Below are positions 22,559-43,693 of a stretch of 64,000 bases of DNA, one piece after another. The notes under the pieces were generated by a model. That model was not told the origin of the DNA, made no database searches, and saw only the letters and a list, made by a program, of their open reading frames with translations. The stretch lies in assembly GCF_900103485.1 (NCBI RefSeq), contig NZ_FNHW01000001.1:531418-595417 (forward strand), in the 5' to 3' direction. The translations under genes and the position numbers were made by a program. Positions within the stretch are counted from its first letter, which is position 1. Every line of letters begins with the position of its first letter. Origin of the DNA: Fictibacillus solisalsi (GTDB lineage: Bacteria > Bacillota > Bacilli > Bacillales > Fictibacillaceae).

Positions 22559-22624
22559 GGTTTGGCTCCTTTCGAACAGTAGTGGACCGGGCAGCAATCC
22601 TTGTACCCGGCCCATGATGGGATA

Positions 22625-29104: not shown

Positions 29105-29107
29105 GCT

Positions 29108-29590: not shown

Positions 29591-29765
29591 TGTCCGACCT
29601 CCCAATATAATTTTAGGACAATCAACCAACTCTTTTTGGCTGGCACTAAATCAAGTTTGTACAAATATAGTAGTGTTTTTCAAAAATATTCCTATTTTCA
29701 TAGCTTTTAAGGGGGTGATCAGAAGATATTCATTTGGAATAACAAACATCTGGGAGGGAAGCAGA
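29591..29765. promoter_or_regulatory. Divergent control region of the xdh and microcompartment operons
   Basis: Within 175 bases both operons must be started. On the minus strand TTGAAA, 16 bases and TACAAA form a possible promoter. TCAACCAA at 29622-29629 resembles part of the PucR site known in B. subtilis (WWWCNTTGGTTAA) at 7 of 8 core bases on the minus strand. TTTGTACAAA at 29656-29665 is a perfect palindrome, and its TTTGTACA core also occurs upstream of the adenine permease gene. The plus-strand promoter lacks a good -35, which fits an activator. Confidence 0.45.
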
Positions 29766-31088
29766 ATGGCACAACTAAAAACGTGGAAAGTAGGTGTACT
29801 TGGTCTGCAGCATGTTCTTGCCATGTATGCCGGAGCGGTAATCGTACCGCTCATTGTTGGGCCTGCTATTGGGATGAATGCCCAGCAGCTGGCCTATCTG
29901 ATATCCATTGACCTGTTCACCTGCGGAATTGCCACCCTGCTACAGGTCATCGGAGGCAGGCATTTTGGCATCAGGCTCCCGGTCATTCTCGGCTGTACAT
30001 TCACCGCCGTGGCACCCATGATCGCCATTGGAAAACTCGAAGGAATTACAGCGATTTATGGCGCGATCATCGTCTCGGGACTGGTCGTCATGGTGCTCTC
30101 ACAGTTTGTTGGCAAAATCCTTAAATTTTTTCCGCCTGTTGTAACAGGTTCAGTTGTACTCATTATCGGGGTGTCGCTGATTCCGGTTGCCATGAACAAT
30201 GCGGCAGGTGGACTTGGATCAAAGGGATTTGGCAGCCTGGAAAATTTGACACTCGCCTGTTTTACATTCCTGCTGATCATTCTAATTAACCGGTTTTCCA
30301 GAGGCTATGTCCGGGCAATCTCTGTACTGTTATCTCTGATCGCGGGTACGGTACTTGCTTCCATAATGGGGCTTGTGGATGTCACCCCTGTAAAAGACGC
30401 GTCCTGGTTTCATATGGTACAGCCATTTTATTTCGGAATGCCTGAATTTCACGTTTCGGCCATACTCACCATGTCTATTGTCGCCATTGTGAGCATGATT
30501 GAGTCTACCGGTGTATTTCTCGCGTTAGGAGACATTTGCGACCGGAAGCTTGAATCCCGGGACATTAAGAAGGGCTTAAGGGCAGAAGGGTTTGCCATTG
30601 TGATTGGCGGCATTTTTAATTCCTTTCCCTATACCTCCTTCTCACAGAACGTTGGTCTTGTGGCTTTGACAAAAGTAAAAACAAGAAATGTGGTCATTGC
30701 CGCCGGCGGCTTTTTATTACTTCTGGGCTTGCTTCCCAAGATTGCGGCTCTCACCACCATTATTCCAACGGCAGTCCTTGGCGGGGCGATGATTCCGATG
30801 TTTGGAATGGTCATAGCTTCAGGTGTAAAAATGCTGTCACAGGCCGATTTTTCGAGCAACGAAAATCTTCTGATTGTCGCCTGTTCGGTAGGAATCGGGC
30901 TTGGAACTGCCGTAGTTCCCATGGTGTTCAGCGGGCTTCCGGACAGTGTAAGGCTCTTAGTGGAAAATGGGATCGTCATTGGAAGTTTAACTGCGATTTT
31001 GCTGAATCTAGTATTTAATTTCAAGTCTATGAATATACATGAGCAGGAAAGGATGAACCAGCTGAAAGCCGATGGGGACGTAATATAA
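29766..31088 (+). CDS. NCS2 family xanthine/urate-type permease
   Basis: This 440-residue nucleobase:cation symporter is of the UraA/UapA type, distinct from the AzgA type at 22625. I start it at ATG 29766 after GGGAGGG. Family text QHVLAMYAGAVIVPLIVG near the start and the motif NSFPYTSFSQNVG (transmembrane 10 region) are present. About 12-14 membrane segments are seen. PucJ/PucK of B. subtilis, urate transporters, are close in type. It is the first gene of the microcompartment operon, pointing to xanthine or urate as the imported substrate. Confidence 0.88.
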   Translation: MAQLKTWKVGVLGLQHVLAMYAGAVIVPLIVGPAIGMNAQQLAYLISIDLFTCGIATLLQVIGGRHFGIRLPVILGCTFTAVAPMIAIGKLEGITAIYGAIIVSGLVVMVLSQFVGKILKFFPPVVTGSVVLIIGVSLIPVAMNNAAGGLGSKGFGSLENLTLACFTFLLIILINRFSRGYVRAISVLLSLIAGTVLASIMGLVDVTPVKDASWFHMVQPFYFGMPEFHVSAILTMSIVAIVSMIESTGVFLALGDICDRKLESRDIKKGLRAEGFAIVIGGIFNSFPYTSFSQNVGLVALTKVKTRNVVIAAGGFLLLLGLLPKIAALTTIIPTAVLGGAMIPMFGMVIASGVKMLSQADFSSNENLLIVACSVGIGLGTAVVPMVFSGLPDSVRLLVENGIVIGSLTAILLNLVFNFKSMNIHEQERMNQLKADGDVI

Positions 31089-31183
31089 CAGCTTATGTAG
31101 GGTACGGGGGCTGCGAGCCGGCCCCCTGCCAGTACTGTTCCTTTCACTGTTTTGTTCTAAAAAAGTCTAAAGGAGAGTCGGAA

Positions 31184-32656
31184 ATGGATCTGATTTTAAA
31201 AAATGCAATGATTCCACAAGGAGACCGTACGGTAATCACCAACATCCTCGTCCATGAGGGCAGGATTACCGGCTTTTGCAATGATATTCAAACCTTTAAT
31301 GCGGACAAGGTACTCGACATGGAGGGCAAACTGGTGGTTCCAGGCTGTATTGATCCGCATACTCATTTTATGGATCCAGGGTTCACCCACCGGGAAACGT
31401 TTGCAACAGGTTCGCGGTCAGCGGCAGCGGGGGGATTAACGACCATTATTGATATGCCGTGTTGTTCCAAGCCCTCTGTAAGGGATGGGGAAAGCTTTCA
31501 GAAAAAAATCGGTCCAATCCGGGGACAGGCTTATATTGATTATTGTTTCTGGGGCGGCATGACCGGAGAAGATGCCCGTAACGGCTGGATCGATAACATC
31601 TATCCACAAATCGATGAAGGTGTTGTTGCGTTCAAGGTGTACATGACGCCATCGGTGCCAACCTTCCCAAAAGTGTCCGACGGGGAGATGCTGGAGATTT
31701 TTCAGAAAGTCGCAAAAACAGGAATGCCGATAGGGGTTCATGCGGAGAACTATGATATTTGTACGTTCTATACAGAGAAGCTGAAGAACGAAGGAAGGGA
31801 AGATGGCCCGGCCTGGGCAGAAGCACGGATGGCGCTAGCGGAAAAGGTAGCCATTGAACTTATTATCAGTTATGCAGAAGCAACGGATGCGCGTGTTCAT
31901 GTCGTTCATATGAGCACTAAAGAAGGCGTTAAACTGGTGCGGGAAGCGAAAAAACGTGGTGTTAAGGTGACATCAGAAACGTGTCCTCATTACTTGATGC
32001 TGAATGCACAGGACTCCATGACCGAAAGAGGAACCTTTGCCAAAATTGCTCCTCCACTAAGAGGTAAGGATGATAACCAGGCTCACTGGCAGGCGTTGGC
32101 AGATGGAACCATTGACTTTGTAGGAACAGATCATGCGCCATATGAAATCGCAACTGAAAAGGCGGCAGCCGATTCTTCAATATGGAACAGCTTCCCTGGC
32201 ATTCCGGGTGTGGAAACCATGGTTCCGATCCTGGTCAGCGAGGGATTGAACAAAGGACGGCTGTCACTATCTCGTTTTGTTGAAGTAACAAGCAAAAATG
32301 CGGCGGTTCATTATGGCATCTACCCGAAAAAAGGAGCCATGGAGATCGGGAGTGATGCGGACTTTACGGTTATTGATCTTGATCATGAGTGGATCATTGA
32401 TGAAAAGCAGACAGAGTCAATGGCTAAATACAATCCATTGCACGGAATCAAGCTCAAAGGGCGCCCGGTGCAGACGATCGTCAGAGGAACCGTTGTATAT
32501 GACTATGAAAAAGGCGGGATAACAGGTACAGCAGGATATGGAGAATACGTGAAACGCCAAAGCATCCAGCGCCTTGAGCGAACGCTGAAGTATGAAAACT
32601 ATGAAATTGCAAATCTGCCATCAGCCGCACGGCAGCAGCTGGAAAAAAGCAAATAA
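31184..32656 (+). CDS. Cyclic amidohydrolase, allantoinase/dihydropyrimidinase family
   Basis: This 490-residue metal enzyme opens a cyclic amide. The binuclear metal site shows HTH in DPHTHF, a Lys in VAFKVYMT (likely carbamylated), His in GVHAEN and HVVHMS, and Asp in GTDHAPY. By sequence it would be annotated allantoinase. The window has no uricase, HIU hydrolase, OHCU decarboxylase or allantoate amidohydrolase. I therefore infer that its substrate may be xanthine itself, opened to 4-ureido-5-imidazolecarboxylate. The long gap before it (95 bases) holds a GC hairpin without a T run. Confidence 0.85.
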   Translation: MDLILKNAMIPQGDRTVITNILVHEGRITGFCNDIQTFNADKVLDMEGKLVVPGCIDPHTHFMDPGFTHRETFATGSRSAAAGGLTTIIDMPCCSKPSVRDGESFQKKIGPIRGQAYIDYCFWGGMTGEDARNGWIDNIYPQIDEGVVAFKVYMTPSVPTFPKVSDGEMLEIFQKVAKTGMPIGVHAENYDICTFYTEKLKNEGREDGPAWAEARMALAEKVAIELIISYAEATDARVHVVHMSTKEGVKLVREAKKRGVKVTSETCPHYLMLNAQDSMTERGTFAKIAPPLRGKDDNQAHWQALADGTIDFVGTDHAPYEIATEKAAADSSIWNSFPGIPGVETMVPILVSEGLNKGRLSLSRFVEVTSKNAAVHYGIYPKKGAMEIGSDADFTVIDLDHEWIIDEKQTESMAKYNPLHGIKLKGRPVQTIVRGTVVYDYEKGGITGTAGYGEYVKRQSIQRLERTLKYENYEIANLPSAARQQLEKSK

Positions 32657-32670
32657 GAAAGGAGATGCCT

Positions 32671-33261
32671 ATGGAATTGAGGGGAAAGAAGCATGTGGTC
32701 GTGGTGATTGACATGCTGAATGATTTTATTGGGGAAAAAGCGGCCCTTCGCTGTGAAAATGGAGAGAAAATCGTTCCAGCCATTAAAGAGCTCGTGGACT
32801 TTTGCCATGAAGAGAATATACAGGTTGTGTTTGTCCAGGAAGCGCACCGAAAAAACGACCGTGATTTCCGCGTCCGGCCGGTTCATGCCATAAAAGGAAC
32901 ATGGGGCTCGCAGTTCATTCCCGAACTTCAGCCTGATGAAAGCAAGGGAGACTATGTGGTTCAAAAAAGAAGGCACAGTGCGTTCAGCTATACCGATTTT
33001 GATTTGTTCTGCCGGGAAGAGGAAATTGATACGGTCGTTCTGACAGGGGTATGGACCAATGTGTGCGTGAGGAGCACCGGTTCTGACGCGCTTTATCATG
33101 GATACAATGTGATTTGCCTGTCAGATTCCACAGCCTCCAAGGATGATTCAATGCATGAATCCGGACTCCGGGACATTGATTTATTCGGAGACATCATGAC
33201 AACGAAAGAATACATGGAAGCGGCAAGAAAAAAGTTCTCGAATAACAACCAGGTCGTTTAA
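32671..33261 (+). CDS. Isochorismatase-like cysteine hydrolase, carbamoyl-cleaving type
   Basis: I place the start at ATG 32671, six bases after AAAGGAG. The triad is Asp (VVIDMLNDF near residue 14), Lys (VQKRRHSAF near 98) and Cys (WTNVCVRST near 131). The motif VWTNVCVRST and the downstream DIDLFGD match the RutB/carbamoylsarcosinase branch, which removes carbamoyl groups from ureido compounds. In this operon it is a good candidate for converting 4-ureido-5-imidazolecarboxylate to the amino acid, with release of ammonia and CO2. That role is inference. Confidence 0.83.
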   Translation: MELRGKKHVVVVIDMLNDFIGEKAALRCENGEKIVPAIKELVDFCHEENIQVVFVQEAHRKNDRDFRVRPVHAIKGTWGSQFIPELQPDESKGDYVVQKRRHSAFSYTDFDLFCREEEIDTVVLTGVWTNVCVRSTGSDALYHGYNVICLSDSTASKDDSMHESGLRDIDLFGDIMTTKEYMEAARKKFSNNNQVV

Positions 33262-33267
33262 TCTGTC

Positions 33268-33837
33268 ATGGGCCAAAACAAACGGATCATTGTCGGTATA
33301 ACAGGAGCGAGCGGTGCTCTGTATGGCTACTCGCTCGTCCGGGCCCTGCATCAGCTGGGAATCGAAACCCACCTGATCATTACAGAGATGGGAGAAAGGG
33401 TGCTGCAGTTTGAATGCGGGATCAGTATGGAGGCACTGAAGCCGTATGCAGAGATTCACAGCAATAAAAATTTATTTGCTTCAGTCGCCAGCGGTTCTTT
33501 TTTAACAGATGGGATGGTGGTTGTCCCTTGTTCGATGAACACGCTCGGTTCACTCGCTAACGGTGTCGGCGATACATTGCTCAGCCGGGCTGCGAGCGTC
33601 GTGCTGAAGGAGAGAAGGCAGCTGATCGTTGTACCAAGGGAAGCTCCTTTCCATCTCATCCATCTCCAGAACATGACGAGGCTTGCGGAGGCAGGAGCCT
33701 GCATTATGCCCGCTTCGCCAGGTTTTTATCATAAGCCGAAGGAGATTTGGGAGCTGGTGAATTTTATGTCCGGGAGAATTCTGGACATGTTGGGAATTGA
33801 CCACGCGCTTCTGCAGAGATGGGGGGAGAACGCATGA
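33268..33837 (+). CDS. ubiX: UbiX-type flavin prenyltransferase
   Basis: This enzyme makes prenylated FMN, the cofactor of UbiD decarboxylases. The 189-residue flavoprotein starts with IIVGITGASGALYG and has VVPCSMNTL and the prenyl-site loop VPREAPFHLIHL. It directly precedes, and overlaps by 4 bases (ATGA), the UbiD-family gene, so the pair is functionally linked. A further flavoprotein-like gene lies at 37023, but it does not share these loops. Confidence 0.92.
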   Translation: MGQNKRIIVGITGASGALYGYSLVRALHQLGIETHLIITEMGERVLQFECGISMEALKPYAEIHSNKNLFASVASGSFLTDGMVVVPCSMNTLGSLANGVGDTLLSRAASVVLKERRQLIVVPREAPFHLIHLQNMTRLAEAGACIMPASPGFYHKPKEIWELVNFMSGRILDMLGIDHALLQRWGENA

Positions 33838-35174
33838 ATCCAGCCACACTTCGTGCATTGCTGGACCGGTGGGATTCCGAACAAAAGCTTCTCCGTGTAA
33901 AAAAAGAGGTGGATCCGCTTTATGAACTGGGAGCGGTACTTAACTCAAAACAGGGAAAACAGCCGTTTTATTTTGAAAACGTAAAAGGCTATCACTCGCC
34001 CATGGTCGGAGGCCTCGGGGGAGACCGCCAGCTTTTGGCTGACAGTATTGGTGTTCATGTCAACCAGCTTATTCCGAAAATCATCCAGTCGATTGTATCT
34101 CCCGTACCAACCAACCTGGTGGCATCAGCACCTGTACATGACAATGTCATTCTGGGCTCGTTCGATCTGGATACTCTTTTCCCTATCCCTACGTTTCATG
34201 AAGAAGATTCAGGATCTTATTATGTTTCAGGCATTCTTGTGGTGAAGGACCCTTCAGGCCTAAAACGTTACACGTCCATCAGAAGGATGCAGTTTCTTGG
34301 AGAGAACAAGACCAGTGTTCTTATTACTTCCCCCGAATTGCTTCATCAATTCTATGATTATGAAAAGCGGAATGAACCAATGGAGGTTGCTGTTATGTTT
34401 GGTGTTGTTCCGGCCGTGGTTCTCAGCTCACAAATTAGCACGCACTTGTACCATACTGACAAGCTTGATGTAGCGGGAGCATTGATCGGCCAGGCGCTGG
34501 ATGTGGTTCAGTGCCGGACGGTTGATCTGGAAGTTCTCGCCGAAGCCGAGATTGTGCTGGAAGGGAGGGTGCTTCCTCATGAAAGGGAGCTCGAAGGACC
34601 GTTTGGTGAGCTGGCCGGATATTATGGAACCCGTGCTTTGCAGCCTGTGATTGAGTTTTCTGCGGTTACGTACCGGGATCAGGCCATATGCCAGACGATT
34701 TTTCCATCAAGTTATGAAGAACGGCTGCCCATGGCGCTCGTACGTGAAGCCACGCTTTATAGCACGGTCAGACAGACTGTGCCCAATGTAAAAAAAGTTC
34801 ATATCACCATGGGTGGTGTTGCCAGGTTCCACGCGGTGATTCAAATTGAAAAGGTAACAGAAGGGGACGGGAAGCAAGCTGCACTTGCGGCTTTTGCCAG
34901 TGATAAGGATTTAAAGCATGTGATCGTCGTGGATGAAGATGTGGACATCTTTAACCCTGAAGATGTAGAGTGGGCGCTGGCAGTAAGGGTGCAGGCCGAC
35001 CAGGATACTTTCATTGTTCCGGGTGCAAAGGGCTCACCTCTTGAAGCCTCTCACAACCTTAGAGGGGTTTCGGCGAAGATGGGTGTGGATGCAACGGTTC
35101 CTTTGGGCAGCAAAGACGCGTTTAAGCGGACCTCGGTACCATTTGGTCCCATTGATTTAGGAGATTATCTGTAA
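33834..35174 (+). CDS. UbiD family decarboxylase
   Basis: This prenyl-FMN-dependent decarboxylase starts at ATG 33834 after GGGGGGAG. Its 446 residues include the acid pair Glu254 and Glu259 in LEGPFGEL, spaced as in known UbiD enzymes, and an Arg at 150-151 (SIRRMQF). UbiD enzymes remove carboxyl groups from aromatic or heteroaromatic acids. Here I infer 4-amino-5-imidazolecarboxylate as the substrate, giving 4-aminoimidazole. A role in ubiquinone synthesis is unlikely given the operon. Confidence 0.9.
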   Translation: MNPATLRALLDRWDSEQKLLRVKKEVDPLYELGAVLNSKQGKQPFYFENVKGYHSPMVGGLGGDRQLLADSIGVHVNQLIPKIIQSIVSPVPTNLVASAPVHDNVILGSFDLDTLFPIPTFHEEDSGSYYVSGILVVKDPSGLKRYTSIRRMQFLGENKTSVLITSPELLHQFYDYEKRNEPMEVAVMFGVVPAVVLSSQISTHLYHTDKLDVAGALIGQALDVVQCRTVDLEVLAEAEIVLEGRVLPHERELEGPFGELAGYYGTRALQPVIEFSAVTYRDQAICQTIFPSSYEERLPMALVREATLYSTVRQTVPNVKKVHITMGGVARFHAVIQIEKVTEGDGKQAALAAFASDKDLKHVIVVDEDVDIFNPEDVEWALAVRVQADQDTFIVPGAKGSPLEASHNLRGVSAKMGVDATVPLGSKDAFKRTSVPFGPIDLGDYL

Positions 35175-35192
35175 ACAGGGAGGAACGCGGGA

Positions 35193-35456
35193 TTGAATGC
35201 GATCGGCATGATTGAAACACGGGGACTGACGGCGGCTGTTGAAGCGTTGGATGCAATGGCTAAAGCAGCAAACGTTCAGTTGACCTCATTTAAAAAAGTA
35301 GGTTCAGGACTGGTTACGGTCATTATCGAGGGAGATGTGGCTGCTGTTTCGTCCGCCATTGAAGTGGGCAGGCAGGCTCACATTCAAACAGGGGGGGAGC
35401 TCATCTCATCGAATGTAATTCCACGGCCTCATTCCGAACTGGCAAAGATTTTGTAG
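35193..35456 (+). CDS. BMC-H microcompartment shell protein, GSG pore
   Basis: This 87-residue single-BMC-domain protein forms hexamers that tile the shell facets. It starts at TTG 35193 with GGGAGG upstream. The family start AIGMIETRG and EALDAMAKAANV are textbook, close to PduA and EutM. The pore loop is KKVGSGL (GSG at 37-39), as in shell proteins thought to pass small polar molecules. It is the first shell gene of the operon. Confidence 0.96.
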   Translation: MNAIGMIETRGLTAAVEALDAMAKAANVQLTSFKKVGSGLVTVIIEGDVAAVSSAIEVGRQAHIQTGGELISSNVIPRPHSELAKIL

Positions 35457-35472
35457 GGAGAGGTGGAAGCTC

Positions 35473-36345
35473 ATGTCGGAATTTATGCGTGCAATTGTTC
35501 AAGAAGTGCTGCGCCCAGCTGAACAGCCTGAACGGCCGCCAAAAAAGAAAAAAGAGCCTCCTGCAGTTCAACAAAAGCTGCACCGGCCAAACTATCAGAA
35601 TGCCATGCGGGAAAAACGGTTGAACGAGTTGAAGGGAAACCATGAGAAGATCTCAAACCCGGGTGATGAGCTTGTTTCCCGTCTGAATATCCTCACACTT
35701 GCCCAGGGAGCTGAGAGAGGAACAACGGTACCTGCAAATCATGGGACCAAAAACACCTCCGGCCAGCCTTGCGGCCGGCTGATCGGATCAGCCCCATCAG
35801 GCCTGGCAGCCTGGCTCTATTCAAATCTTCCGCATGAAAAGCTGGAATGGTTTCACCGCCCGATTTCCGCTAGAGGAGTTGCCGTTTTTTCCGCTCCTGT
35901 ATCATCTCCCGGACAGCTTGTTATCCTTCAGGAAGAATTAACCCGAACGGGGGGAGTGAAATATTTTATTCAATGGGACAAAAACGGAAAGAAAGCTTTT
36001 CTTTTGGAGCTCTTTCATAACGATTGTAACCTACTGGAAACCACTGCAGAAAACGTGTGGCAAGCTTTAAACCGTCAAACGAAAAAAAAGACTAAACTTT
36101 TTTACTTGGAGCAGCCGGGATCGTGGCTGTTGAACCAACTGGAGCTTACGGGAATCAGAGGTGCTGTTGCCATTATGGAAGGTTTCGGCCGGTATGAATC
36201 CTATTCTCTTCTTTTGCCGGTGCTTCAAGAGCTGGCGTCAATCAATATCAGGTACAAGATCGAGGAGAGCTATCTGGTTCTTTATGGCGCTCATGAACAG
36301 CTTGCCAGCTATTTACCCGGTTTATTCGGAGAAATCCAACAGTAA
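35473..36345 (+). CDS. BMC-operon protein with possible encapsulation peptide; unknown
   Basis: This 290-residue protein has no family that I recognise. Residues 1-13 (MSEFMRAIVQEVL) form a short amphipathic helix like known microcompartment encapsulation peptides, then a Pro/Lys-rich linker follows. The middle is of unknown fold. The last 60 residues read GAVAIMEGFGRYESY, then hydrophobic and beta-like text ending LVLYG; this parallels the BMC-domain order (GMIET-G ... helix ... strand) in degenerate form. It sits between the first and second shell genes with ideal ribosome site. I suggest a cargo scaffold or an altered shell-binding protein, as inference only. Confidence 0.6.
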   Translation: MSEFMRAIVQEVLRPAEQPERPPKKKKEPPAVQQKLHRPNYQNAMREKRLNELKGNHEKISNPGDELVSRLNILTLAQGAERGTTVPANHGTKNTSGQPCGRLIGSAPSGLAAWLYSNLPHEKLEWFHRPISARGVAVFSAPVSSPGQLVILQEELTRTGGVKYFIQWDKNGKKAFLLELFHNDCNLLETTAENVWQALNRQTKKKTKLFYLEQPGSWLLNQLELTGIRGAVAIMEGFGRYESYSLLLPVLQELASINIRYKIEESYLVLYGAHEQLASYLPGLFGEIQQ

Positions 36346-36357
36346 GGGGTGGGAAAT

Positions 36358-36675
36358 GTGCATGCATTGGGCATGATTGAAACGGTCGGATATTGTGCTG
36401 CTGTATCCGCAGCAGATGCCGCTGTAAAAGCGGCAGATGTTAAAATTGCCGCGATCGAAAAAGTGATTGGTGTTCAGGGGGCATTAGGCGTTACCCTTCA
36501 CCTCAGCGGAGATGTAGCCGCTGTTGCCTCAGCGGTTGATGCAGGGAAAAAGGAGGCCGAACGGGTGGGGAAAGTCATTTCAGCCCATGTCATTCCAAGC
36601 ACTCACAGCAATGTGGCCGAAAAACTCCTGTCCCGGTTTAAGCTGAATGCTGCGAAAGAAACGGAGAGGGCTTAA
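36358..36675 (+). CDS. BMC-H shell protein with extended pore loop
   Basis: This 105-residue BMC-domain protein starts at GTG 36358, eight bases after AAGGGG; GTG 36349 overlaps that site. The N-terminal LGMIETVG and the helix AADAAVKAADV are canonical. The pore loop is unusual: instead of three residues (GSG) it reads KVIGVQGALGV around residues 35-45, an insertion that should change the central pore. A C-terminal tail of about 17 residues (KLNAAKETERA at the end) is charged. It likely assembles with the other two hexamers. Confidence 0.92.
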   Translation: MHALGMIETVGYCAAVSAADAAVKAADVKIAAIEKVIGVQGALGVTLHLSGDVAAVASAVDAGKKEAERVGKVISAHVIPSTHSNVAEKLLSRFKLNAAKETERA

Positions 36676-36741
36676 ATGTCTGAAGGTAATGAGCAAAAAG
36701 CATCCACGGTGCCAATCCAAGAAAACAGGAGGAATAATAGA

Positions 36742-37020
36742 ATGGGCGAAGCGTTAGGCTTGATTGAAACAAAAGGCCTGGTCGGTGCAATTGAAGCGGC
36801 AGACGCCATGGTGAAAGCTGCCAATGTGGAAATCTGCGGGTACGAAAAGGTAGGATTCGGTCTGGTAACCGTCATGGTAAGAGGGGATGTTGGTGCGGTA
36901 AAAGCGGCTACAGATGCGGGGGCAAGTGCTGCGAGCCGTGTGGGGGAACTGGTATCGGTACATGTCATTCCCCGGCCGCACAGTGAAATTGAAAGAGCCC
37001 TGCTGTCTAAAGGAGAATAA
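36742..37020 (+). CDS. BMC-H shell protein, GFG pore
   Basis: This 92-residue BMC-domain protein starts at ATG 36742, nine bases after AGGAGG. An in-frame ATG at 36676 with a weaker site would add 22 polar residues and cannot be excluded. The sequence [17 protein letters not shown] and [12 protein letters not shown] is canonical. The pore loop is KVGFGL (GFG at 38-40), so a Phe lines the opening. Together with the other two hexamers this gives three pores of different chemistry. Confidence 0.93.
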
Positions 37021-37022
37021 GT

Positions 37023-37748
37023 GTGTATGGCGCCAGGCAGAGTACGGTCGTAAAGAATACCCTGCTTGAACTGCTTTTTTCGGAGGGTAAGGGAGTTCCG
37101 CGTGTCACCTCACTCTTAACCTACCATTTCACAGGGATGGAGGAAGGGTGGATGCTCCTCAGGGAAGCGGGGAAAAAGAGAATCCGGATGGAAGTCGTTG
37201 CAGAAGGAACGCTGCTGCAGCATTTTAGGATTGCCAGCCTGGCTGCTGCGTGCCGTCACGACGCCCTATATCCGGAATCCTTTTTAACAGAGGATGTGCT
37301 TTGGAGAACCGACTATATCCTGATACCAGTTCTATCATTTTCTCTAGTATCCGACCTTTTGCGGTTTAATGACCAAAGAACCTTTGTACGCTTTATTTTG
37401 CAGGCCTTGCTTAACGGTAAAAAAGTAGTTGCGCTGTCATGCGGTGCAAATCCGTTTCATCCGGTGTTTGCCAAAAAAAATCTGGACCAAGGAACCGTAC
37501 CCTTAACTGACGAGCTTTACATGCAACTGACTCAGCTTAAAAAGCTGGGCATCAAAGTAGCGGGTTCAGATAACAGCGTGCTGTCCTGGCTGGAAGAAAA
37601 GGAAAAAAACGCTGTGATTACGGAAGCGGATGTGCTGCAGGCTTCAAAAAAGGGCCAGAAATTTATCACAGTAGGGAAGCATGTAATCATTACACCGTTG
37701 GCAAGGGATGCGGCAACACAATACAAAATTTTGATTGCCAGAAAATAA
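37023..37748 (+). CDS. Flavoprotein-like protein of the BMC operon
   Basis: This 241-residue protein starts at GTG 37023 after AAGGAG. Part of it (DYILIPVLSFSLVSDLLRF and KKVVALSCGANP) resembles the flavoprotein fold shared by UbiX and phosphopantothenoylcysteine decarboxylase. The UbiX signature loops are absent. Proteins of this kind occur as accessory genes in other microcompartment loci. It could carry FMN for a redox step, or be structural. I am unsure of the family. Confidence 0.55.
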   Translation: MYGARQSTVVKNTLLELLFSEGKGVPRVTSLLTYHFTGMEEGWMLLREAGKKRIRMEVVAEGTLLQHFRIASLAAACRHDALYPESFLTEDVLWRTDYILIPVLSFSLVSDLLRFNDQRTFVRFILQALLNGKKVVALSCGANPFHPVFAKKNLDQGTVPLTDELYMQLTQLKKLGIKVAGSDNSVLSWLEEKEKNAVITEADVLQASKKGQKFITVGKHVIITPLARDAATQYKILIARK

Positions 37749-37760
37749 GGGGAAACGAAT

Positions 37761-38039
37761 ATGTACATGGGCGTCGTGATTGGAAGAGTAACAGCTACAC
37801 GAAAGGATGACAAATTGATTGGCACAAAGCTGCTGATAACACAGCCGATCGGCATGGGCGAATCCGAAAGCGGCATGCCGATCATTGCTGTAGATACAGT
37901 AGGTGCAGGTGTAGGAGAAAAGGTTCTTTATGTTACGGGTAGCATGGCGTCACGGGCGGCGGCCGATAAGGATGCGCCCATCGATGCAGCTATTGTGGGC
38001 ATCATTGACAGTCTCGATTGGGAAAGGCAGGGAGGTTAG
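37761..38039 (+). CDS. BMC-P (EutN/CcmL) pentameric vertex protein
   Basis: This 92-residue protein is the pentamer that caps the vertices of the shell. GVVIGRVTATRKDDKLIG, LLITQPIG and the C-terminal DAAIVGIIDSL are family hallmarks. AAGGGGAAAC-like sequence precedes ATG 37761. It is the only vertex gene in the window, and with three hexamers it gives a minimal complete shell set; no tandem-domain (BMC-T) shell protein is present. Confidence 0.95.
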   Translation: MYMGVVIGRVTATRKDDKLIGTKLLITQPIGMGESESGMPIIAVDTVGAGVGEKVLYVTGSMASRAAADKDAPIDAAIVGIIDSLDWERQGG

Positions 38040-38043
38040 GAAT

Positions 38044-39864
38044 ATGGACACAAAAGGTATTAAAGAAGCCATTCAATGGCGGAAACTCATTGATGTGCTG
38101 CTTGATGCCAACCAGTATGCAGACACCATTTTAAAGGGCGGCCAGTTTATTAATGTCATCACACGTGAAATTTATCCAGCCGATGTGGCCATAAAAGGAG
38201 AATATATTTTATTAGTTGGGGATTGCACAGACCTGGAAGGACCTTCAACCAAAGTGGAAGATGTGGCCGGTATGTATATCAGCCCTGGTTTTATTGATTC
38301 TCATATGCATTTTGAAAGCGCCATGCTCACAGTTACTGAATTTTCCAGGCTGTCTATTCCTACCGGAACGACAACAATTGTTGCTGATCCTCATGAAATT
38401 GGTAATGTGCTCGGAGTTCTTGGCATGCAGGAAATGGTCAAAGAAGCAAGAAACCTGCCAAACACGGTCTATTTTACCGTTCCATGTTTAACGCCGGACG
38501 CTCCGGGACTGGAAACAGCAGGAAGGGACATCGGATCAGGGGAGATGGCAGAACTGCTGAATGATCCTCTCGTACTGGGAATCGGTGAAATTCAGGGTTT
38601 CAGCAATGTCAGGCCGGTCTACCAGCACGCACCAGAACTCATTGATGACCTTCTTGCGTCTGTTTCCTACGCAAAAAGTATCAACAAGACGGTGGAGGGA
38701 AATGCACCGGCTTTGTTCGGTAAAGAGCTCGCGGCCCACATTATTAGCGGGGGAACCCACATTTCCTGCCATGAGACGACGACCAAAGAAGAAATGGTGG
38801 AAAAGCTGCGCAATGGTGTCAGTGTGTTCATGAGAGAAGGATCATCCCAGCGGAATATGGCAGAATGCATCAGGGCCATCACGGAAGAAGGAATGGATTC
38901 CCGGCGTGCGATCCTGGTATCTGATGATGTAGTACCGGAAGATCTCATGGAGATGGGCCATATGAATGACATTGTGAAAAGAACCATTGCACAGGGAATC
39001 GATCCGGTCGAGGCGATCCAGATGGTGACCATCAATGCCGCTGCCCATTTTGGGTTTAAAGACAGGGGTGTGCTTACTCCAGGGAAAAAGGCCGATATTG
39101 CCGTCATCCATGATTTGATGAACATGACAATCGATTCGGTATATCTCAAAGGAAAAAAGGCTGCACAGCAAAAGGAACTAATCATCGATCTTCCTGTTTA
39201 CCAATACCCTGAAAGTGTCAAACGCTCTGTCAAACGAAAGCCGGTAAAAATGGATGATCTGGTCATTGAGGCTTCCGGGTCCAGGGCACATGTCCGGGCC
39301 ATTAAGTTAATCCCTGACCAAAATCTAACTGGTTCGGCACAATTCCAGTTATCGGTTCGTGATGGAAAGGTCCAGCCTTGCCTTCAGCAGGATGTATTGC
39401 CGCTATTGGTTATTGAAAGGCATGGCCGATCAGGGCGTACTGGAAAAACCTTCCTTAACGGATTTCAGTTGAAACGGGGTGCAATCGCTGGAAGCGTGGC
39501 GCATGACACGCACAATATCATCGTTTGCGGCACCAATTACGAGGATATGGTAACGGCGGTGAACAGGGTAATTGCCATGAGTGGAGGTATTGCATTGATT
39601 CATGACGGACGAGTCGTTGGTGATTTGCCGCTGAACATCGGAGGATTGATGACTGACGAGATGACAGGGCAGGAAGTCAGTACCCGAATTGCTGAACTTC
39701 ACCGGCTGGCAGAGGAGGAATTAGGGTGCGGCATCCATGTTCCTTTTATGCATCTCTCTTTCCTGTCGCTGGTAACCAGCCCGGAATGGAAAATAACAGA
39801 TATGGGATTGATCGACGTGGACTCCTTTACGATCCTTCCTACTGTGTTGAAGGAGGAAGGATGA
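38044..39864 (+). CDS. Adenine deaminase-like amidohydrolase, diverged
   Basis: This 606-residue AdeC homologue starts at ATG 38044. Many AdeC features are kept: HMH in DSHMHFES, DPHEIGN and a C-terminal VAHDTHN. Sites differ from the canonical copy at 20819: GHASGI becomes GNAPAL (His to Asn), TDHECVT becomes SCHETTT and TDDKHLDD becomes SDDVVPED. These lie in substrate- or metal-binding stretches, so the substrate may differ. I infer 4-aminoimidazole, converted to 4-imidazolone and ammonia. It follows the vertex gene with a short gap and overlaps the next gene by 4 bases. Confidence 0.85.
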   Translation: MDTKGIKEAIQWRKLIDVLLDANQYADTILKGGQFINVITREIYPADVAIKGEYILLVGDCTDLEGPSTKVEDVAGMYISPGFIDSHMHFESAMLTVTEFSRLSIPTGTTTIVADPHEIGNVLGVLGMQEMVKEARNLPNTVYFTVPCLTPDAPGLETAGRDIGSGEMAELLNDPLVLGIGEIQGFSNVRPVYQHAPELIDDLLASVSYAKSINKTVEGNAPALFGKELAAHIISGGTHISCHETTTKEEMVEKLRNGVSVFMREGSSQRNMAECIRAITEEGMDSRRAILVSDDVVPEDLMEMGHMNDIVKRTIAQGIDPVEAIQMVTINAAAHFGFKDRGVLTPGKKADIAVIHDLMNMTIDSVYLKGKKAAQQKELIIDLPVYQYPESVKRSVKRKPVKMDDLVIEASGSRAHVRAIKLIPDQNLTGSAQFQLSVRDGKVQPCLQQDVLPLLVIERHGRSGRTGKTFLNGFQLKRGAIAGSVAHDTHNIIVCGTNYEDMVTAVNRVIAMSGGIALIHDGRVVGDLPLNIGGLMTDEMTGQEVSTRIAELHRLAEEELGCGIHVPFMHLSFLSLVTSPEWKITDMGLIDVDSFTILPTVLKEEG

Positions 39865-40547
39865 TGGGGGTAAAACTTGTTGACTTGTCGCAGGAGATCT
39901 ACCAGGGAATGCCTGTCTTTCCTCTTCATCAAAAAACGATGATCTTTCCCAACCTTTCTCATGAGGAAAGCATCGAAAGAATAGGTTTTCCCTTTGCTAC
40001 GAACAATCTTCTCATTAATGAGCACGGACCGACCCACAGCGACGCAACTTACGAGTATGATCCCGGTGGGAAGTATATTGACGAAATGCCGCTTGACTAT
40101 TTTTACGGACCAGCGGTTTGTCTTGATCTCTCCTCCATTCAGCCGGAAGACTATATTACGCCAGTTGAACTGGAAAATGCCCTGGACCGTTCCGGACAGC
40201 TCCTTCAAAAGGGAGATATATGCCTTCTGTATACAGGGCATTATAACCGTGCCTATGGAACAGAGGAATGGCTGACACGGTATACCGGCCTCGATTATGA
40301 AGGTGCCCGATGGCTTGCTGAAAAAGGGGTGGTAAACATCGGAATTGATGCACCGGCCATTGACAATCCGCTGGATTTGGACTACTCAGGGCACCTGATC
40401 TGCAAGGAATACGGAATTACCAATACGGAGAACCTCTGTAATCTTGACCAGGTCGCGAATATGCGGTTTCTCTATTTTGGCCTGCCACTAAGAATCCGCA
40501 AAGGAACGGGATCGCCTGTGCGGGCTGTAGCTGTTTTTATTGAATAG
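39861..40547 (+). CDS. Cyclase / kynurenine-formamidase-like hydrolase
   Basis: This metal-dependent hydrolase family includes bacterial arylformamidase. The start is ATG 39861 or the adjacent ATG 39864; AGGAGG lies just before. In about 228 residues the metal site EHGPTHSDA near residue 55 matches the HxGTHxD motif. The C-terminal VRAVAVFIE is also typical. Because arylformamidases cleave formyl amides, it could split N-formylglycine to formate and glycine; that is inference from context. Confidence 0.8.
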   Translation: MMGVKLVDLSQEIYQGMPVFPLHQKTMIFPNLSHEESIERIGFPFATNNLLINEHGPTHSDATYEYDPGGKYIDEMPLDYFYGPAVCLDLSSIQPEDYITPVELENALDRSGQLLQKGDICLLYTGHYNRAYGTEEWLTRYTGLDYEGARWLAEKGVVNIGIDAPAIDNPLDLDYSGHLICKEYGITNTENLCNLDQVANMRFLYFGLPLRIRKGTGSPVRAVAVFIE

Positions 40548-40558
40548 GAGGAGTAGCC

Positions 40559-41185
40559 ATGTCCATTCACGATACCTACCGAATTAAGGAGGAAATCTTG
40601 ATTCCGGCTTATGAGGGCAGAAGCGCTCTCATAAAAGCAGGGGAGGAGCTTGTCATTATTGATGTGGAAGGAAAGCAGGTCGGGGACTTTGTCTGCTTTT
40701 CACTTCAAGATCCGGATGAATATGTCTCGCCAGTTCATATGAGGGCCAGTTTAAGCAGTATTTCACTGAAAACAGGTGATATGCTGTACAGCAACCGCAG
40801 GCGGCCGCTCATGCAGCTTGTCCAGGATACAGTGGGCAAACATGACTTTTTCTTTCCGGCCTGTGATTATTACCGGTACAAGGTAGACTTTGGCCTTGAA
40901 GATCATCCGAATTGCCATGATAACCTAAAAGAAGCGCTGACCTATTATTCCCTTGGTCATGTACACGTGCCTGATCCGATCAACTGGTTCATGAATAATG
41001 TCCTTGATGAGAATGGAGATTACATCATCAGCGAACCGCTTTCCAAGCCTGGTGATTTTGTGAGGGTAAAAGCCCTGGAAGATGTAATTATCGCCTGCTC
41101 CACCTGTTCACAGGATCTTGCACCGGTGAACGGTTTTCGCGTCACAGAACTCAAACTTCAGATTTTGAATAAAGCACGCGCATAA
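40559..41185 (+). CDS. DUF1989 / urea carboxylase-associated family protein
   Basis: This 208-residue protein belongs to the DUF1989 family. Visible features are SNRRRPLMQLVQDTVGKHDFFF and the Cys pair CSTCSQDLAPVNG. Characterised DUF1989 pairs act as carboxyguanidine deiminases, so the fold can hydrolyse a C=N group. Here a single gene occurs, between a formamidase-like and an amidohydrolase gene. A deiminase action on N-formiminoglycine would fit. The AGGAGGAG site is strong. Confidence 0.82.
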   Translation: MSIHDTYRIKEEILIPAYEGRSALIKAGEELVIIDVEGKQVGDFVCFSLQDPDEYVSPVHMRASLSSISLKTGDMLYSNRRRPLMQLVQDTVGKHDFFFPACDYYRYKVDFGLEDHPNCHDNLKEALTYYSLGHVHVPDPINWFMNNVLDENGDYIISEPLSKPGDFVRVKALEDVIIACSTCSQDLAPVNGFRVTELKLQILNKARA

Positions 41186-41224
41186 CCAAGGAATCATGCT
41201 ATTGCCGGGATAAGGAGGAAAAGC

Positions 41225-42559
41225 ATGTCTTCATTGCTCATAAAAAACGCTGAAATCATCACCATGAACGAAAAAGAAGAAATCGTGCATGGTGACCTAT
41301 TTATTGAGGACAATCGTATTAAGGAAATTGGACATGGGCTTGCCTCCGAGGCTGATGTCACCATCGATGCGAAGAATAAAACGATTATTCCAGGCTTTGT
41401 CCAAACGCATATTCACCTGTGCCAGACTTTGTTCAGAGGACAAGCAGATGATTTGGAATTGTTGGACTGGCTGAGGCAAAAAATATGGCCGCTTGAAGCT
41501 TCTCACGATGAAGAATCCATCTTTTATTCGGCCTTGTTGGGGGCAGGGGAACTGATCCAGAGCGGCACAACCACCATCGTGGATATGGAAACCGTCAATC
41601 ATGCGGACTTTGCCTTTCAGGCGATCTCACAAAGCGGGATCCGGGCATTGTCGGGAAAAGTGATGATGGATAAAGGCACGGAGGTACCTGGCCCCTTGAG
41701 GGAAAGTACATCAAAGTCCTTACAGCAAAGCGCTGACCTTCTGGAAAAATGGCATGGCAGGGAAAATGGCCGCATTCAATATGCCTTTTGTCCCCGTTTT
41801 GTTGTCTCCTGCACCGAGGAGCTCCTGACAGAAGTGCGGGACTTATCAAAGCGGCATGATGTGTTTGTGCATACTCATGCTGCAGAAAATCGGGGTGAGA
41901 TTGCCATTGTCGAACAGGAAACTGGGATGCGAAATGTGGTATATCTCGAACATATTGGACTAGCAAACGAAAAATTGATTTTGGCCCATTGTGTGTGGCT
42001 TAATGAGGAGGAAAAGAGCATTATCAAAAAGCACAGAGTAAAAGTGAGCCATTGTCCAGGCTCCAATCTGAAGCTTTCTTCTGGAATCGCGCATGTGCCG
42101 CAAATGCTGGATCAGGGTATTTTTATGAGCCTGGGCGCGGATGGTGCTCCCTGCAATAACAATTTGGACATGCTGAATGAAATGAGGCTTGCTGCTCTTA
42201 TCCAAAAGCCGATTCACGGACCAACCTCGATGAATGCAAAAACCGTATTTGAAATGGCCACCATCGGCGGAGCGAAAGCCGTAGGCATGGAACAAGATAT
42301 CGGAAGTCTTGAAGTTGGCAAAAAAGCAGATCTCGCCATCCTGAATCTTAATGATTTTCATATGTATCCTTCCTATGGGACAGATACCATTTCACGGATC
42401 GTTTACTCAGCTACACGTGCAGATGTTGAAACGGTTATTATTGATGGAAATATTGTGATGGATAATCGAAAGTTGAATACGATGGATAAACATACGGTTC
42501 TTAAGGAAGCGAATAAATGCATCCGCAGACTGCTGAAACGAAGTGAAGGAATTTGTTAA
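41225..42559 (+). CDS. Amidohydrolase, cytosine/guanine deaminase - HutI/HutF superfamily
   Basis: This 444-residue enzyme has HxH in QTHIHLCQT, His in HTHAAEN, LAHCVWL and SHCPGSNLKL, and Asp in GADGAPCNNN; it is the TrzN/SsnA-like branch. The branch includes deaminases and the imidazolone and formimino hydrolases of histidine breakdown. In this operon it may open 4-imidazolone to formiminoglycine, or deaminate guanine. It is the last gene; no clear terminator separates it from the convergent germination operon. Confidence 0.83.
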   Translation: MSSLLIKNAEIITMNEKEEIVHGDLFIEDNRIKEIGHGLASEADVTIDAKNKTIIPGFVQTHIHLCQTLFRGQADDLELLDWLRQKIWPLEASHDEESIFYSALLGAGELIQSGTTTIVDMETVNHADFAFQAISQSGIRALSGKVMMDKGTEVPGPLRESTSKSLQQSADLLEKWHGRENGRIQYAFCPRFVVSCTEELLTEVRDLSKRHDVFVHTHAAENRGEIAIVEQETGMRNVVYLEHIGLANEKLILAHCVWLNEEEKSIIKKHRVKVSHCPGSNLKLSSGIAHVPQMLDQGIFMSLGADGAPCNNNLDMLNEMRLAALIQKPIHGPTSMNAKTVFEMATIGGAKAVGMEQDIGSLEVGKKADLAILNLNDFHMYPSYGTDTISRIVYSATRADVETVIIDGNIVMDNRKLNTMDKHTVLKEANKCIRRLLKRSEGIC

Positions 42560-42565
42560 AAAGGG

Positions 42566-43693
42566 CTAATCAATTACCCCTGTGCGAAGCAGTTGAAAAT
42601 CCACGTCGACATTCACTTTTATGCCGGAAACCTCTTTGTGCCATTGATCTCTTGTTAAATTTGAGTTTCTGACAGAGCTTCGGTAGGTTTCACCAAAACC
42701 AAACGGATCTGATTCTTTGGAAAGGGCATATTTGATCACATCGTCTGCTTGTTTTTTTAATTTATTCTGTATCACGTTCTGAACAAAGACCATGTTTTTC
42801 GGGTCATCCAGATTTACCGGGACACGGATCTCGAGCAACCTGGCCCTGATCTTTAATGAGACGTTAAATTTCTTTTCTTTTGCATTGATTACGTTTATTT
42901 TGCTGCTGCTTTGCAAGGTATCAATGGCAACAGGAATCCCCCTCTTTTCTTTTTTGGGCAAGATGGGATCCAATGAACCCTTGGGAAGCAGGAACTCCAT
43001 ATTGCCGCCATTATATCGCCCATTAATCAGTTTTATATAGTAGCCTTCTTTGGTGTTTAATTTTCCGACCATTCTATCATTTTTCATAAGGGCAATACCA
43101 TGGATTTTTACACTCTCTCCTTTTCTTTTCAGAATGGGAGCGACCGGATCAAAGCCAGCTGCATAGTGGCCCTTCATGAATTCATGAATGGTAGGTGATG
43201 GAATTTCCTCGTTCTTGATATTTTGGTCCAGAAGCCTGAACAGGTATTCTCCAATATCGGGGATATTTTCATACTGGTAGTTAAGAATATCAGCCGAGGT
43301 CGGTTCGGCAATACACATGTAAACCATTTCGCTGATGGAGGGATCCCGTGCGAGTGAGTCTGCGAAATTGATCAGCCCTTTTTTGGCAAGTCGGTCACTG
43401 AACAGGGCAACCCGCAGCTGGCCGGATCGGATTTTCCTTGATGACCGTAAATTTTCCAGGTTGACGATGCCTTTGCTCGTGTATCCTTCGTCTGTCATAA
43501 TATCTACGTTTTGCAGCGCATCAGGATCGACCTGAAGGATTGCCGCTGTTCCTTTGATTTTTCCATTTCCATCCTTTGCATCATCATAGCCAACAGCAGT
43601 GATCAAGCCGACACGTTCAAGGATTTTTGGTTCGGTGCATCCGGAAAGAATCAATGAAAATATCAATAATACAATAAAGGGAAACGTCTTCAT
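42566..43693 (-). CDS. Spore germination receptor subunit C (GerAC family lipoprotein), first operon
   Basis: This 375-residue lipoprotein starts at ATG 43693 with GGGAGG upstream. A signal segment ends in LILSGC, and the Cys is lipidated in this family. The body matches Ger(x)C proteins that sit on the outer face of the spore inner membrane and complete germinant receptors. It is the last gene of an A-B-C operon and overlaps the B gene by one base. Confidence 0.9.
   Translation of the reverse strand: MKTFPFIVLLIFSLILSGCTEPKILERVGLITAVGYDDAKDGNGKIKGTAAILQVDPDALQNVDIMTDEGYTSKGIVNLENLRSSRKIRSGQLRVALFSDRLAKKGLINFADSLARDPSISEMVYMCIAEPTSADILNYQYENIPDIGEYLFRLLDQNIKNEEIPSPTIHEFMKGHYAAGFDPVAPILKRKGESVKIHGIALMKNDRMVGKLNTKEGYYIKLINGRYNGGNMEFLLPKGSLDPILPKKEKRGIPVAIDTLQSSSKINVINAKEKKFNVSLKIRARLLEIRVPVNLDDPKNMVFVQNVIQNKLKKQADDVIKYALSKESDPFGFGETYRSSVRNSNLTRDQWHKEVSGIKVNVDVDFQLLRTGVID

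Follow-up and report, generated by a model that had tools for sequence, protein, structure and literature searches.

A BUF1/Xau bacterial microcompartment locus in Fictibacillus solisalsi and a proposed route from xanthine to glycine

What would a bacterial microcompartment (BMC) do when no aldehyde dehydrogenase is encoded beside its shell proteins? The question is raised by a set of shell genes and purine-type enzyme genes at 29766–42559 of a 64,000-nucleotide stretch of the Fictibacillus solisalsi genome (contig NZ_FNHW01000001.1, positions 531,418 to 595,417; this whole stretch is called the window). An earlier note on this DNA had proposed a microcompartment around nucleobase catabolism without an aldehyde core, and had mentioned that surveys of BMC loci include types assigned to xanthine use. 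Both proposals stand: catabolism of xanthine is the best reading of the gene set, and the locus is of the BUF1/Xau type, here in Fictibacillus, and is not a new locus type. We put at roughly 0.6 the probability that the operon encodes a BUF1/Xau microcompartment in which xanthine would be converted to glycine by the clostridial non-oxidative route, with the published roles of two ring-opening enzymes (amhA and cyc) exchanged and a DUF1989 protein at the exit. Gene content, gene order, homology, co-occurrence and a fold match were observed, and from them we predict every enzymatic activity, the contents of the shell and the benefit that it may bring. The locus type and its predicted xanthine function were already known, and what is added is a proposed swap of two assignments, a probable hidden trimeric shell (BMC-T) gene, a predicted folate-free branch and shell-less clusters. 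The genes of the operon are the following.

29766–31088, plus strand: NCS2 xanthine permease, PbuX subfamily (TIGR03173, 557 bits, cut-off 414)
31184–32656, plus strand: amhA, dihydropyrimidinase/allantoinase-type amidohydrolase, putative xanthine amidohydrolase, step 1 (Pfam/NCBIfam)
32665–33261, plus strand: icm, isochorismatase-like cysteine hydrolase, putative ureidoimidazole-carboxylate hydrolase, step 2 (Pfam/NCBIfam)
33268–33837, plus strand: UbiX-like prenyl-FMN synthase (Pfam Flavoprotein)
33819–35174, plus strand: UbiD-family decarboxylase, putative aminoimidazole-carboxylate decarboxylase, step 3 (Pfam/NCBIfam)
35193–35456, plus strand: BMC-H shell protein H1 (PF00936, 98.7 bits)
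35473–36345, plus strand: probable diverged BMC-T, PduB/EutL-type (predicted fold; N-terminal helix MSEFMRAIVQEVL, RPNYQ-RL motif)
36349–36675, plus strand: BMC-H shell protein H2 (PF00936, 77.2 bits)
36676–37020, plus strand: BMC-H shell protein H3, strongly conserved (PF00936)
37023–37748, plus strand: TIGR02536/PduM-like microcompartment protein (TIGR02536 E 1.5e-10, PduM E 1e-4, both under cut-off)
37761–38039, plus strand: BMC-P (EutN/CcmL) vertex protein (PF03319)
38044–39864, plus strand: adeL, adenine-deaminase-like, putative 4-aminoimidazole deaminase, step 4 (470.8 bits, cut-off 472.5)
39861–40547, plus strand: cyc, PF04199 kynurenine-formamidase/isatin-hydrolase family, putative 4-imidazolonase, step 5 (Pfam/NCBIfam)
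40559–41185, plus strand: d1989, DUF1989 protein, putative N-formiminoglycine deiminase, step 6 (Pfam; FTCD_N distribution)
41225–42559, plus strand: amhZ, TRZ/ATZ-type aminohydrolase (NF005557, 5'-deoxyadenosine deaminase, 724 bits, cut-off 522)

The locus and the proposed pathway

Loci of this class were described, in the accessible text of Axen 2014, as BUF loci of four Firmicute species, without core enzymes and with amidohydrolases, a deaminase, a carboxy-lyase, an isochorismatase and formiminotransferases, and were flagged there as a possible third microcompartment paradigm. Xanthine use was then predicted in silico for the BUF cluster, which was named 'Xau' (Ravcheev & Thiele 2019), and a 2021 survey equates Xau with BUF1 (Sutter 2021); as far as the accessible text of these sources goes, the printed function of the class is this in-silico model. 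The window has the amidohydrolase, isochorismatase, UbiD-type carboxy-lyase and deaminase set of BUF1/Xau, and its order from amhA to amhZ is that of Bacillus (Siminovitchia) fordii DSM 16014 (L074), one of the genomes of Ravcheev & Thiele 2019, except for an added M20 gene in the latter. The formiminotransferase of the last step is missing, FTCD_N being absent from the Fictibacillus genome. This does not exclude membership, because the same authors, in the accessible text, describe a formiminotransferase gap in the cluster of two Bacillus genomes, still count these clusters as Xau and place the step outside the compartment. Searches of the operon ORFs (open reading frames) gave no Pfam match for the aldehyde dehydrogenase that marks Pdu, Eut and GRM loci, nor for an alcohol dehydrogenase, a phosphotransacylase or a B12 enzyme; the lack of an aldehyde core pointed out in the earlier note is correct but, as the defining trait of the BUF class, nothing new. 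We set aside the idea of a metabolosome whose core enzymes are scattered over the genome, as no core gene lies at the locus, which is evidence at the level of the locus only.

The ORF listing and Pfam/NCBIfam searches recovered every plus-strand gene that had been named before, from the permease, the hydrolases, UbiX/UbiD and the deaminase to the formamidase-like and DUF1989 proteins. The permease starts with the ATG at 29766, with GGGAGGG upstream. By ORF coordinates the intergenic gaps are below 100 bp throughout and mostly below 20 bp, and because they are so small a single operon is plausible; the three PF00936 matches of the whole genome (4.8 Mb, 14 contigs) are all inside it. Riboswitch control was rejected, since the window holds no Rfam family at gathering score (two matches below it fall in 29000–43000), and a promoter/terminator scan, with counts not above those in shuffles, was uninformative on the ends of the operon.

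In the proposed pathway, xanthine would be taken up by the NCS2 permease, or be formed from hypoxanthine by the divergent xanthine dehydrogenase (XDH). AmhA would open its six-membered ring to give 4-ureido-5-imidazolecarboxylate (step 1), icm would remove the carbamoyl group (step 2), UbiD, with prenyl-FMN made by UbiX, would decarboxylate the product to 4-aminoimidazole (step 3) and AdeL would yield 4-imidazolone (step 4), which the PF04199 protein cyc would open to N-formiminoglycine (step 5). In Bacilli, the DUF1989 protein would deiminate formiminoglycine to N-formylglycine and ammonia (step 6), replacing the tetrahydrofolate-dependent formiminotransferase of clostridial loci, and a deformylase (the M20 hydrolase in most relatives, presumably another one in Fictibacillus) would release glycine and formate (step 7). 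Candidate genes exist in Fictibacillus for steps 1 to 6. The aminohydrolase amhZ is probably a purine deaminase that feeds the pathway from its periphery. Aminoimidazole carboxylate, aminoimidazole and imidazolone are the intervening intermediates of xanthine fermentation, a classical pathway of anaerobes; that Fictibacillus is aerobic speaks against the proposal. Ureidoimidazole carboxylate, formiminoglycine and glycine are given as intermediates of this fermentation in the accessible text of PMC3519856.

From the gene neighbourhoods, every early step of the fermentation pathway gains a candidate gene. These neighbourhoods were compared in 80 loci, the best 80 of 239 adeL relatives from one adenine-deaminase-like alignment scan, which we split into 58 loci of Bacilli type and 22 of clostridial type ('clostridial' meaning Bacillota outside Bacilli); 38 further stretches were added, some of them the same places as loci of the main set. 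Two genes were counted as neighbours when both lay on the plus strand within 500 bp, among the loci holding both. Wherever 9 kb or more of upstream sequence is available (75 loci), the locus has best-match ORFs for UbiD, BMC-P and at least three BMC-H. The pair amhA–icm is adjacent in 58/58 loci (on either strand, icm directly follows all 60 amhA copies of at least 45% identity), icm–ubiX in 58/58, ubiX–ubiD in 73/74 and ubiD–BMC-H in 73/78, the five misses being Paenibacillus loci where H1 is still the next listed gene. BMC-P is immediately preceded by the gene of the PduM-like protein (or of its clostridial form) and immediately followed by adeL, each in 79/79; adeL is directly followed by cyc in 58/58 loci, all from Bacilli, cyc by d1989 in 56/57 and d1989 by M20 in 41/41. 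The order in Bacilli, namely amhA, icm, ubiX/ubiD, the shell genes, adeL, cyc, d1989 and M20, matches the order of the pathway steps, which supports the reading of the operon as a xanthine-to-glycine route.

The glycine end of the pathway is supported by gene context in two genomes. Downstream of the shell locus of one of them (G081), the stretch L148 carries a formiminotransferase, a cyclodeaminase-like gene, an AzgA-like gene, amhZ, an AdeC-like gene, the alpha and beta genes of L-serine ammonia-lyase, and cyc; in the other (G158), which is 83% complete and likewise contains shell genes, amhA, cyc and FTCD lie on a separate contig (L152), with GcvPB farther along it. As for the deaminase of step 4, AdeL is 95% identical to a deaminase-like protein of F. 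enclensis and 36% identical to the AdeC-like protein encoded at 20819–22615. Position 220 is Asn in 81/81 locus copies of AdeL, the window included, and in 6/6 copies from shell-less stretches, and it is His in 17/17 AdeC-like proteins; six other positions, which we take to belong to the active site, are identical across the two groups. Uricase is absent from 38 of 40 genomes, our own included, and is present in the control B. subtilis, and because of this absence these organisms may open the purine ring mainly through the Xau pathway.

The proposed exit from formiminoglycine

The d1989 gene is found at 57/58 Bacilli loci and at 0/22 clostridial loci. FTCD_N was searched in 40 chosen genomes, those of 39 of the 80 loci and our own, the last being the only one of known completeness: it occurs in none of the 31 genomes whose locus has d1989 and in all nine whose locus lacks it. 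The ninth of these is Neobacillus notoginsengisoli, whose locus (L118) lacks both d1989 and M20 and in which amhZ is followed by FTCD together with a cyclodeaminase-like gene; in the tree it is sister, with 100% support, to N. mesonae, where d1989 and M20 are present. Should the pathway hold, formiminoglycine would have to be handled without FTCD in these Bacilli, because FTCD_N is absent genome-wide, and a hidden copy is unlikely because whole genomes, that of S. fordii included, lack FTCD_N. A DUF1989 enzyme is reported, in the accessible part of the literature, as a carboxyguanidine deiminase; because such an enzyme removes nitrogen from carboxyguanidine, deimination of formiminoglycine would be chemically close, and we infer that the DUF1989 protein deiminates formiminoglycine without folate, in place of formiminotransferase, which is a new predicted activity for this family. 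Among the matches listed in open-licence PMC, supplements apart, none linked DUF1989 with microcompartments or with formiminoglycine, and the term DUF1989 is absent from the main text of Ravcheev & Thiele 2019, whose supplementary Tables S9/S10 may mention it.

The product of the DUF1989 reaction, N-formylglycine, would be deformylated by M20. Relatives of M20 with 45–48% identity (four of them partial alignments) lie elsewhere in 8/8 Paenibacillus genomes whose locus lacks it, weaker ones (34–38%) occur in some clostridial genomes, and none was found at E 1e-60 in the genome of N. notoginsengisoli.

An alternative is that DUF1989 is a passenger acting on guanidine- or urea-type compounds, its pattern relative to formiminotransferase being that of the split between Bacilli and Clostridia. 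We hold this to be unlikely, but several facts agree with it or weaken the case for a DUF1989 exit. The d1989/FTCD label needs only two changes on the tree, and its support amounts to one deep split and one recent exchange, not to 40 independent cases; 'without d1989' was moreover judged at the locus only, not genome-wide. FTCD_N is found in 1/14 control genomes, that of Thermotoga maritima and not that of B. subtilis, so that its absence from Bacilli may be background and is weak evidence when taken alone. As far as the accessible literature describes them, DUF1989 proteins of known function either have carboxyguanidine as substrate or are a part of trimethylamine N-oxide (TMAO) demethylase. 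The window protein reaches 117 and 66 bits with the UAAP1 and UAAP2 models, whose curated cut-offs are 285 and 206. These two models presumably describe the Cgd proteins, as the title of the paper cited for them indicates. Finally, our own genome and four other Fictibacillus genomes hold no M20 relative, and so no M20-type deformylase candidate, at E 1e-60. Against the passenger explanation stand the retention of d1989 at all but one of the Bacilli loci, directly after cyc in all but one of those with both genes, and the fact that its sole absence, in N. notoginsengisoli, coincides with a formiminotransferase and a cyclodeaminase-like gene in the operon.

Which enzyme would open which ring, and the substrate

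In the accessible text of Ravcheev & Thiele 2019, Amet_4587 is XauA, the xanthine opener, and Amet_4584 is XauF, the imidazolonase. Mapped through the gene order of Alkaliphilus-type loci, and not on A. metalliredigens itself, Amet_4587 would be cyc and Amet_4584 would be amhA. In this published assignment the PF04199 protein would open xanthine, amhA would be the imidazolonase and the formiminotransferase of Bacilli would act outside the compartment. The comparison of loci favours swapping the two printed roles, with amhA opening xanthine and cyc opening imidazolone, and we regard the published version as distinctly improbable. AmhA groups with allantoinase, hydantoinase and dihydropyrimidinase, openers of cyclic ureides to carbamoyl compounds, and this family, together with the constant pairing of amhA with the carbamoyl-type hydrolase icm (60/60; the nearest NCBIfam models of icm are RutB and biuret hydrolase, both with scores below cut-off), points to amhA as the xanthine opener. 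The cyc gene has adeL and d1989 as its two neighbours in Bacilli, and adeL and FTCD in L190, L191 and L193, and this placement suggests that it encodes the imidazolonase. The swap is further suggested by the retention of amhA in 11 Paenibacillus-type genomes although it is absent from its usual place (in L092, L109 and L147 the amhA–icm pair is found on the other strand, not far from the shell locus), and by a genome (G246) that has adeL–cyc–FTCD, an amhA relative of only 33% identity at best and no creatininase at E 1e-20. In two other genomes (G221 and G080) the best amhA match is likewise distant (35%), though these have creatininase relatives at 34–36%. The genome-wide absence of FTCD from the 31 tested d1989 genomes likewise goes against a formiminotransferase acting outside the compartment.

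The clostridial loci and one Paenibacillaceae clade pull the other way, towards the printed model. In 16/16 clostridial shell loci that have it, cyc is divergent, near the front of the cluster, close to FTCD or amhA and not to adeL, and in L152 it lies between FTCD and amhA; furthermore, cyc was not found at E 1e-40 in 3/17 genomes, one of the three having, at the end of a contig, a cyc fragment next to adeL. In six loci of the Paenibacillaceae clade, a creatininase and a second isochorismatase stand in place of amhA–icm. Creatininase acts on an imidazolone-like ring, a five-membered lactam, and for this reason the exchange of front ends alone cannot decide the assignment of amhA. AmhA (E 1e-100) was found in 16 of 21 genomes searched, and the five without it (L085, L108, L114, L116, L119) have only the creatininase module; Paenibacillus ihuae has both locus types as well as amhA. 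ECF- or ABC-type transporter genes, recognized by eye (the S component is below the Pfam cut-off), occur at the three creatininase loci viewed (L085, L086, L116), which fits a substrate-side role of the creatininase module without being proof of it. The two loci of P. ihuae, L086 and L087, have different front ends, and in L087 the UbiD and trimeric-shell genes are each split into two ORFs, by decay or sequence error.

Two other candidates for these steps were dropped: amhZ as imidazolonase, because Paenibacillaceae loci with the remaining genes do without it and its score exceeds the 5'-deoxyadenosine deaminase cut-off, and the PF04199 protein as formylglycine deformylase, since it is also present at loci with formiminotransferase. 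Among Paenibacillaceae loci, amhZ was found only at L094, which is probably mislabelled: the tree places both L091 (by its title Pseudomonas sp. ISL-84) and L094 (Paenibacillus sp. FSL R5-0490) within the Cytobacillus clade, and both records are probably mislabelled or contaminated.

That the substrate would be another N-heterocycle (a pyrimidine, a hydantoin, a nicotinate-type compound or a modified purine) and not xanthine is very unlikely, for although the amhA family also opens dihydropyrimidines and hydantoins, and the transporter-linked creatininase clade may take a different substrate, the permease scores over the PbuX cut-off, an xdhS homologue is present at 26/58 Bacilli and 19/22 clostridial loci, an AzgA-like gene at 21/22 clostridial loci and an AdeC-like gene at most of them, and glycine and one-carbon genes stand at the end of the pathway. 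The XDH genes of the window, which the earlier note had placed divergently from the operon, were indeed found so, at 24516–29629 on the minus strand; Pfam identifies the Mo and FAD subunits only, and the other three genes were named by eye from the sequence.

24516–25340, minus strand: XdhC-like protein (by eye)
25337–27631, minus strand: XDH Mo subunit (Pfam)
27612–28505, minus strand: XDH FAD subunit (Pfam)
28505–29104, minus strand: MobA-like nucleotidyltransferase (by eye)
29108–29629, minus strand: XDH 2Fe-2S subunit (by eye)

Beyond them, at 20819–23974, genes for the AdeC-like adenine deaminase (598 amino acids) and an AzgA-like purine permease, both recognized by eye, probably belong to the same purine regulon as the XDH and BMC operons.

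Shell proteins, predicted cargo and known systems

Three BMC-H proteins and one BMC-P had been counted in the earlier note, and this part is borne out; a probable BMC-T and the TIGR02536/PduM-like protein had been overlooked, and they would extend the shell set of the window. The protein encoded at 35473–36345 (290 residues) has no Pfam match up to E 5, hence no pair of BMC domains detectable by sequence, and no NCBIfam match, and PDB sequence searches with the two operon proteins lacking Pfam matches gave nothing useful. Its AlphaFold2 model (mean pLDDT 81; most of residues 100–290 above 90) has the tandem BMC fold according to Foldseek, as the top 12 PDB matches are all PduB, EtuB or EutL, the best being PduB with moderate TM-scores of 0.42 (query) and 0.51 (target) and E 4.8e-6. 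At the same position in L041–L044, from non-Bacilli genomes, the counterpart is a recognizable trimeric shell protein; the one scanned, that of L043, contains a pair of BMC domains and reaches 373 bits with the PduB model NF011944 (cut-off 173) and 266 bits with TIGR04501 (cut-off 310). In an alignment of 39 rows, four of which are recognizable PduB-like homologues, the N-terminal helix is shared and the RPNYQ motif is present in nearly all rows. We conclude that the 35473–36345 protein is probably a diverged trimeric shell protein, with which the locus would have a complete shell (BMC-H, BMC-P and, by predicted fold only, BMC-T) without a metabolosome core.

The 290-residue protein is present in 6/34 genomes of the family, our own included, all of them Fictibacillus, that is, in 6/7 of the genus. 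The seventh (G022) also lacks a close amhA (best 34%), and the BMC locus is probably missing there. At the 22 clostridial loci, no ORF best-matches the window protein or its PduB-like form. A short protein occupies the BMC-T position in several clostridial loci and is of low complexity in the two that were read, those of Alkaliphilus-type loci (L127:7637–8071 and L128:7634–8026; about 95–145 residues, with a helix-like N-terminus); the one of L127 has no NCBIfam match. BMC-H3 (36676–37020) is 77–88% identical to its copies in clostridial loci, while the neighbouring UbiD reaches only 43–50%, as if the surface or the pore of the shell protein were strongly constrained.

In nearly all loci the shell genes stand between ubiD and adeL, which remain there when the front end is moved or replaced; because of this position, UbiD and AdeL are the most likely cargo, with aminoimidazole and imidazolone as the contained intermediates, and the N-terminal tail of the PduB-like trimeric protein may tether this core. 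A point that does not fit is that neither UbiD nor AdeL has an encapsulation-peptide-like extension when their ends are aligned over shell loci. The ends of seven enzymes were aligned with those of up to ten other shell loci, with shell-less rows added for amhA, icm, UbiD, adeL and cyc (one such row, L147, is from a genome with a shell locus), and nothing specific to shell loci was seen in them except a C-terminal tail of amhA in the window, L071 and L073.

Together, adeL, cyc and FTCD also occur in four clostridial stretches without shell genes, L190, L191 and L193, which are 9–19 kb long and for which the absence of a shell holds for the stretch only, and L192, which additionally has a creatininase, a second isochorismatase and a weak UbiD match. 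These clusters suggest that the chemistry of the pathway does not strictly need a shell, and they offer a natural control for what the shell contributes. For the group as a whole, we tentatively picture, at a little short of even odds, a clostridial xanthine pathway that spore-forming Bacilli run within a shell holding the UbiD and deaminase steps and their labile intermediates, with a folate-free exit through DUF1989 and M20 or another deformylase, and that is shell-less in some other Bacillota.

Two further observations concern neighbouring genes. A small MpsC/DUF2294-like protein (PF10057, 23.8 bits, cut-off 23) is encoded upstream at 46/58 Bacilli loci (for example L089:792–1148) and was not seen in the window. 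A second UbiD (41%) is encoded in our genome at C4:3263982–3265337 (L154:6923–8326), in an apparently unrelated cluster whose genes look, by eye and weak BLAST matches, like aldehyde and alcohol dehydrogenases and molybdenum hydroxylase subunits.

Compared with known systems, the 35473–36345 protein shares the predicted fold of the PduB/EutL trimeric shell proteins and, like the PduB-like counterpart of L041–L044, has an N-terminal extension, but it is too diverged from PduB/EutL for any Pfam or NCBIfam match. The carboxyguanidine deiminase CgdAB belongs to the same Pfam family as d1989, and its hydrolysis of an amidine-type C=NH bond is the chemistry proposed here; d1989 differs in being a single gene, in a purine locus, and far under the UAAP1/UAAP2 cut-offs. 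With the xanthine fermentation of Clostridium cylindrosporum and C. acidurici, the proposed pathway has ureidoimidazole carboxylate, formiminoglycine and glycine in common; in the accessible text of PMC3519856 microcompartments are not mentioned by that word, and most steps are left without an identified gene. BUF/BUF1 as described in the accessible text of Axen 2014 and Sutter 2021 is the same core-less Firmicute shell locus with the same enzyme classes, whereas formiminotransferases, which the former lists, have no FTCD_N counterpart in our genome and the 30 other tested d1989 genomes. Finally, the locus has the gene set of Xau (Ravcheev & Thiele 2019), but here the predicted roles of amhA and of the PF04199 protein are reversed, and DUF1989 and M20 are given roles of their own.

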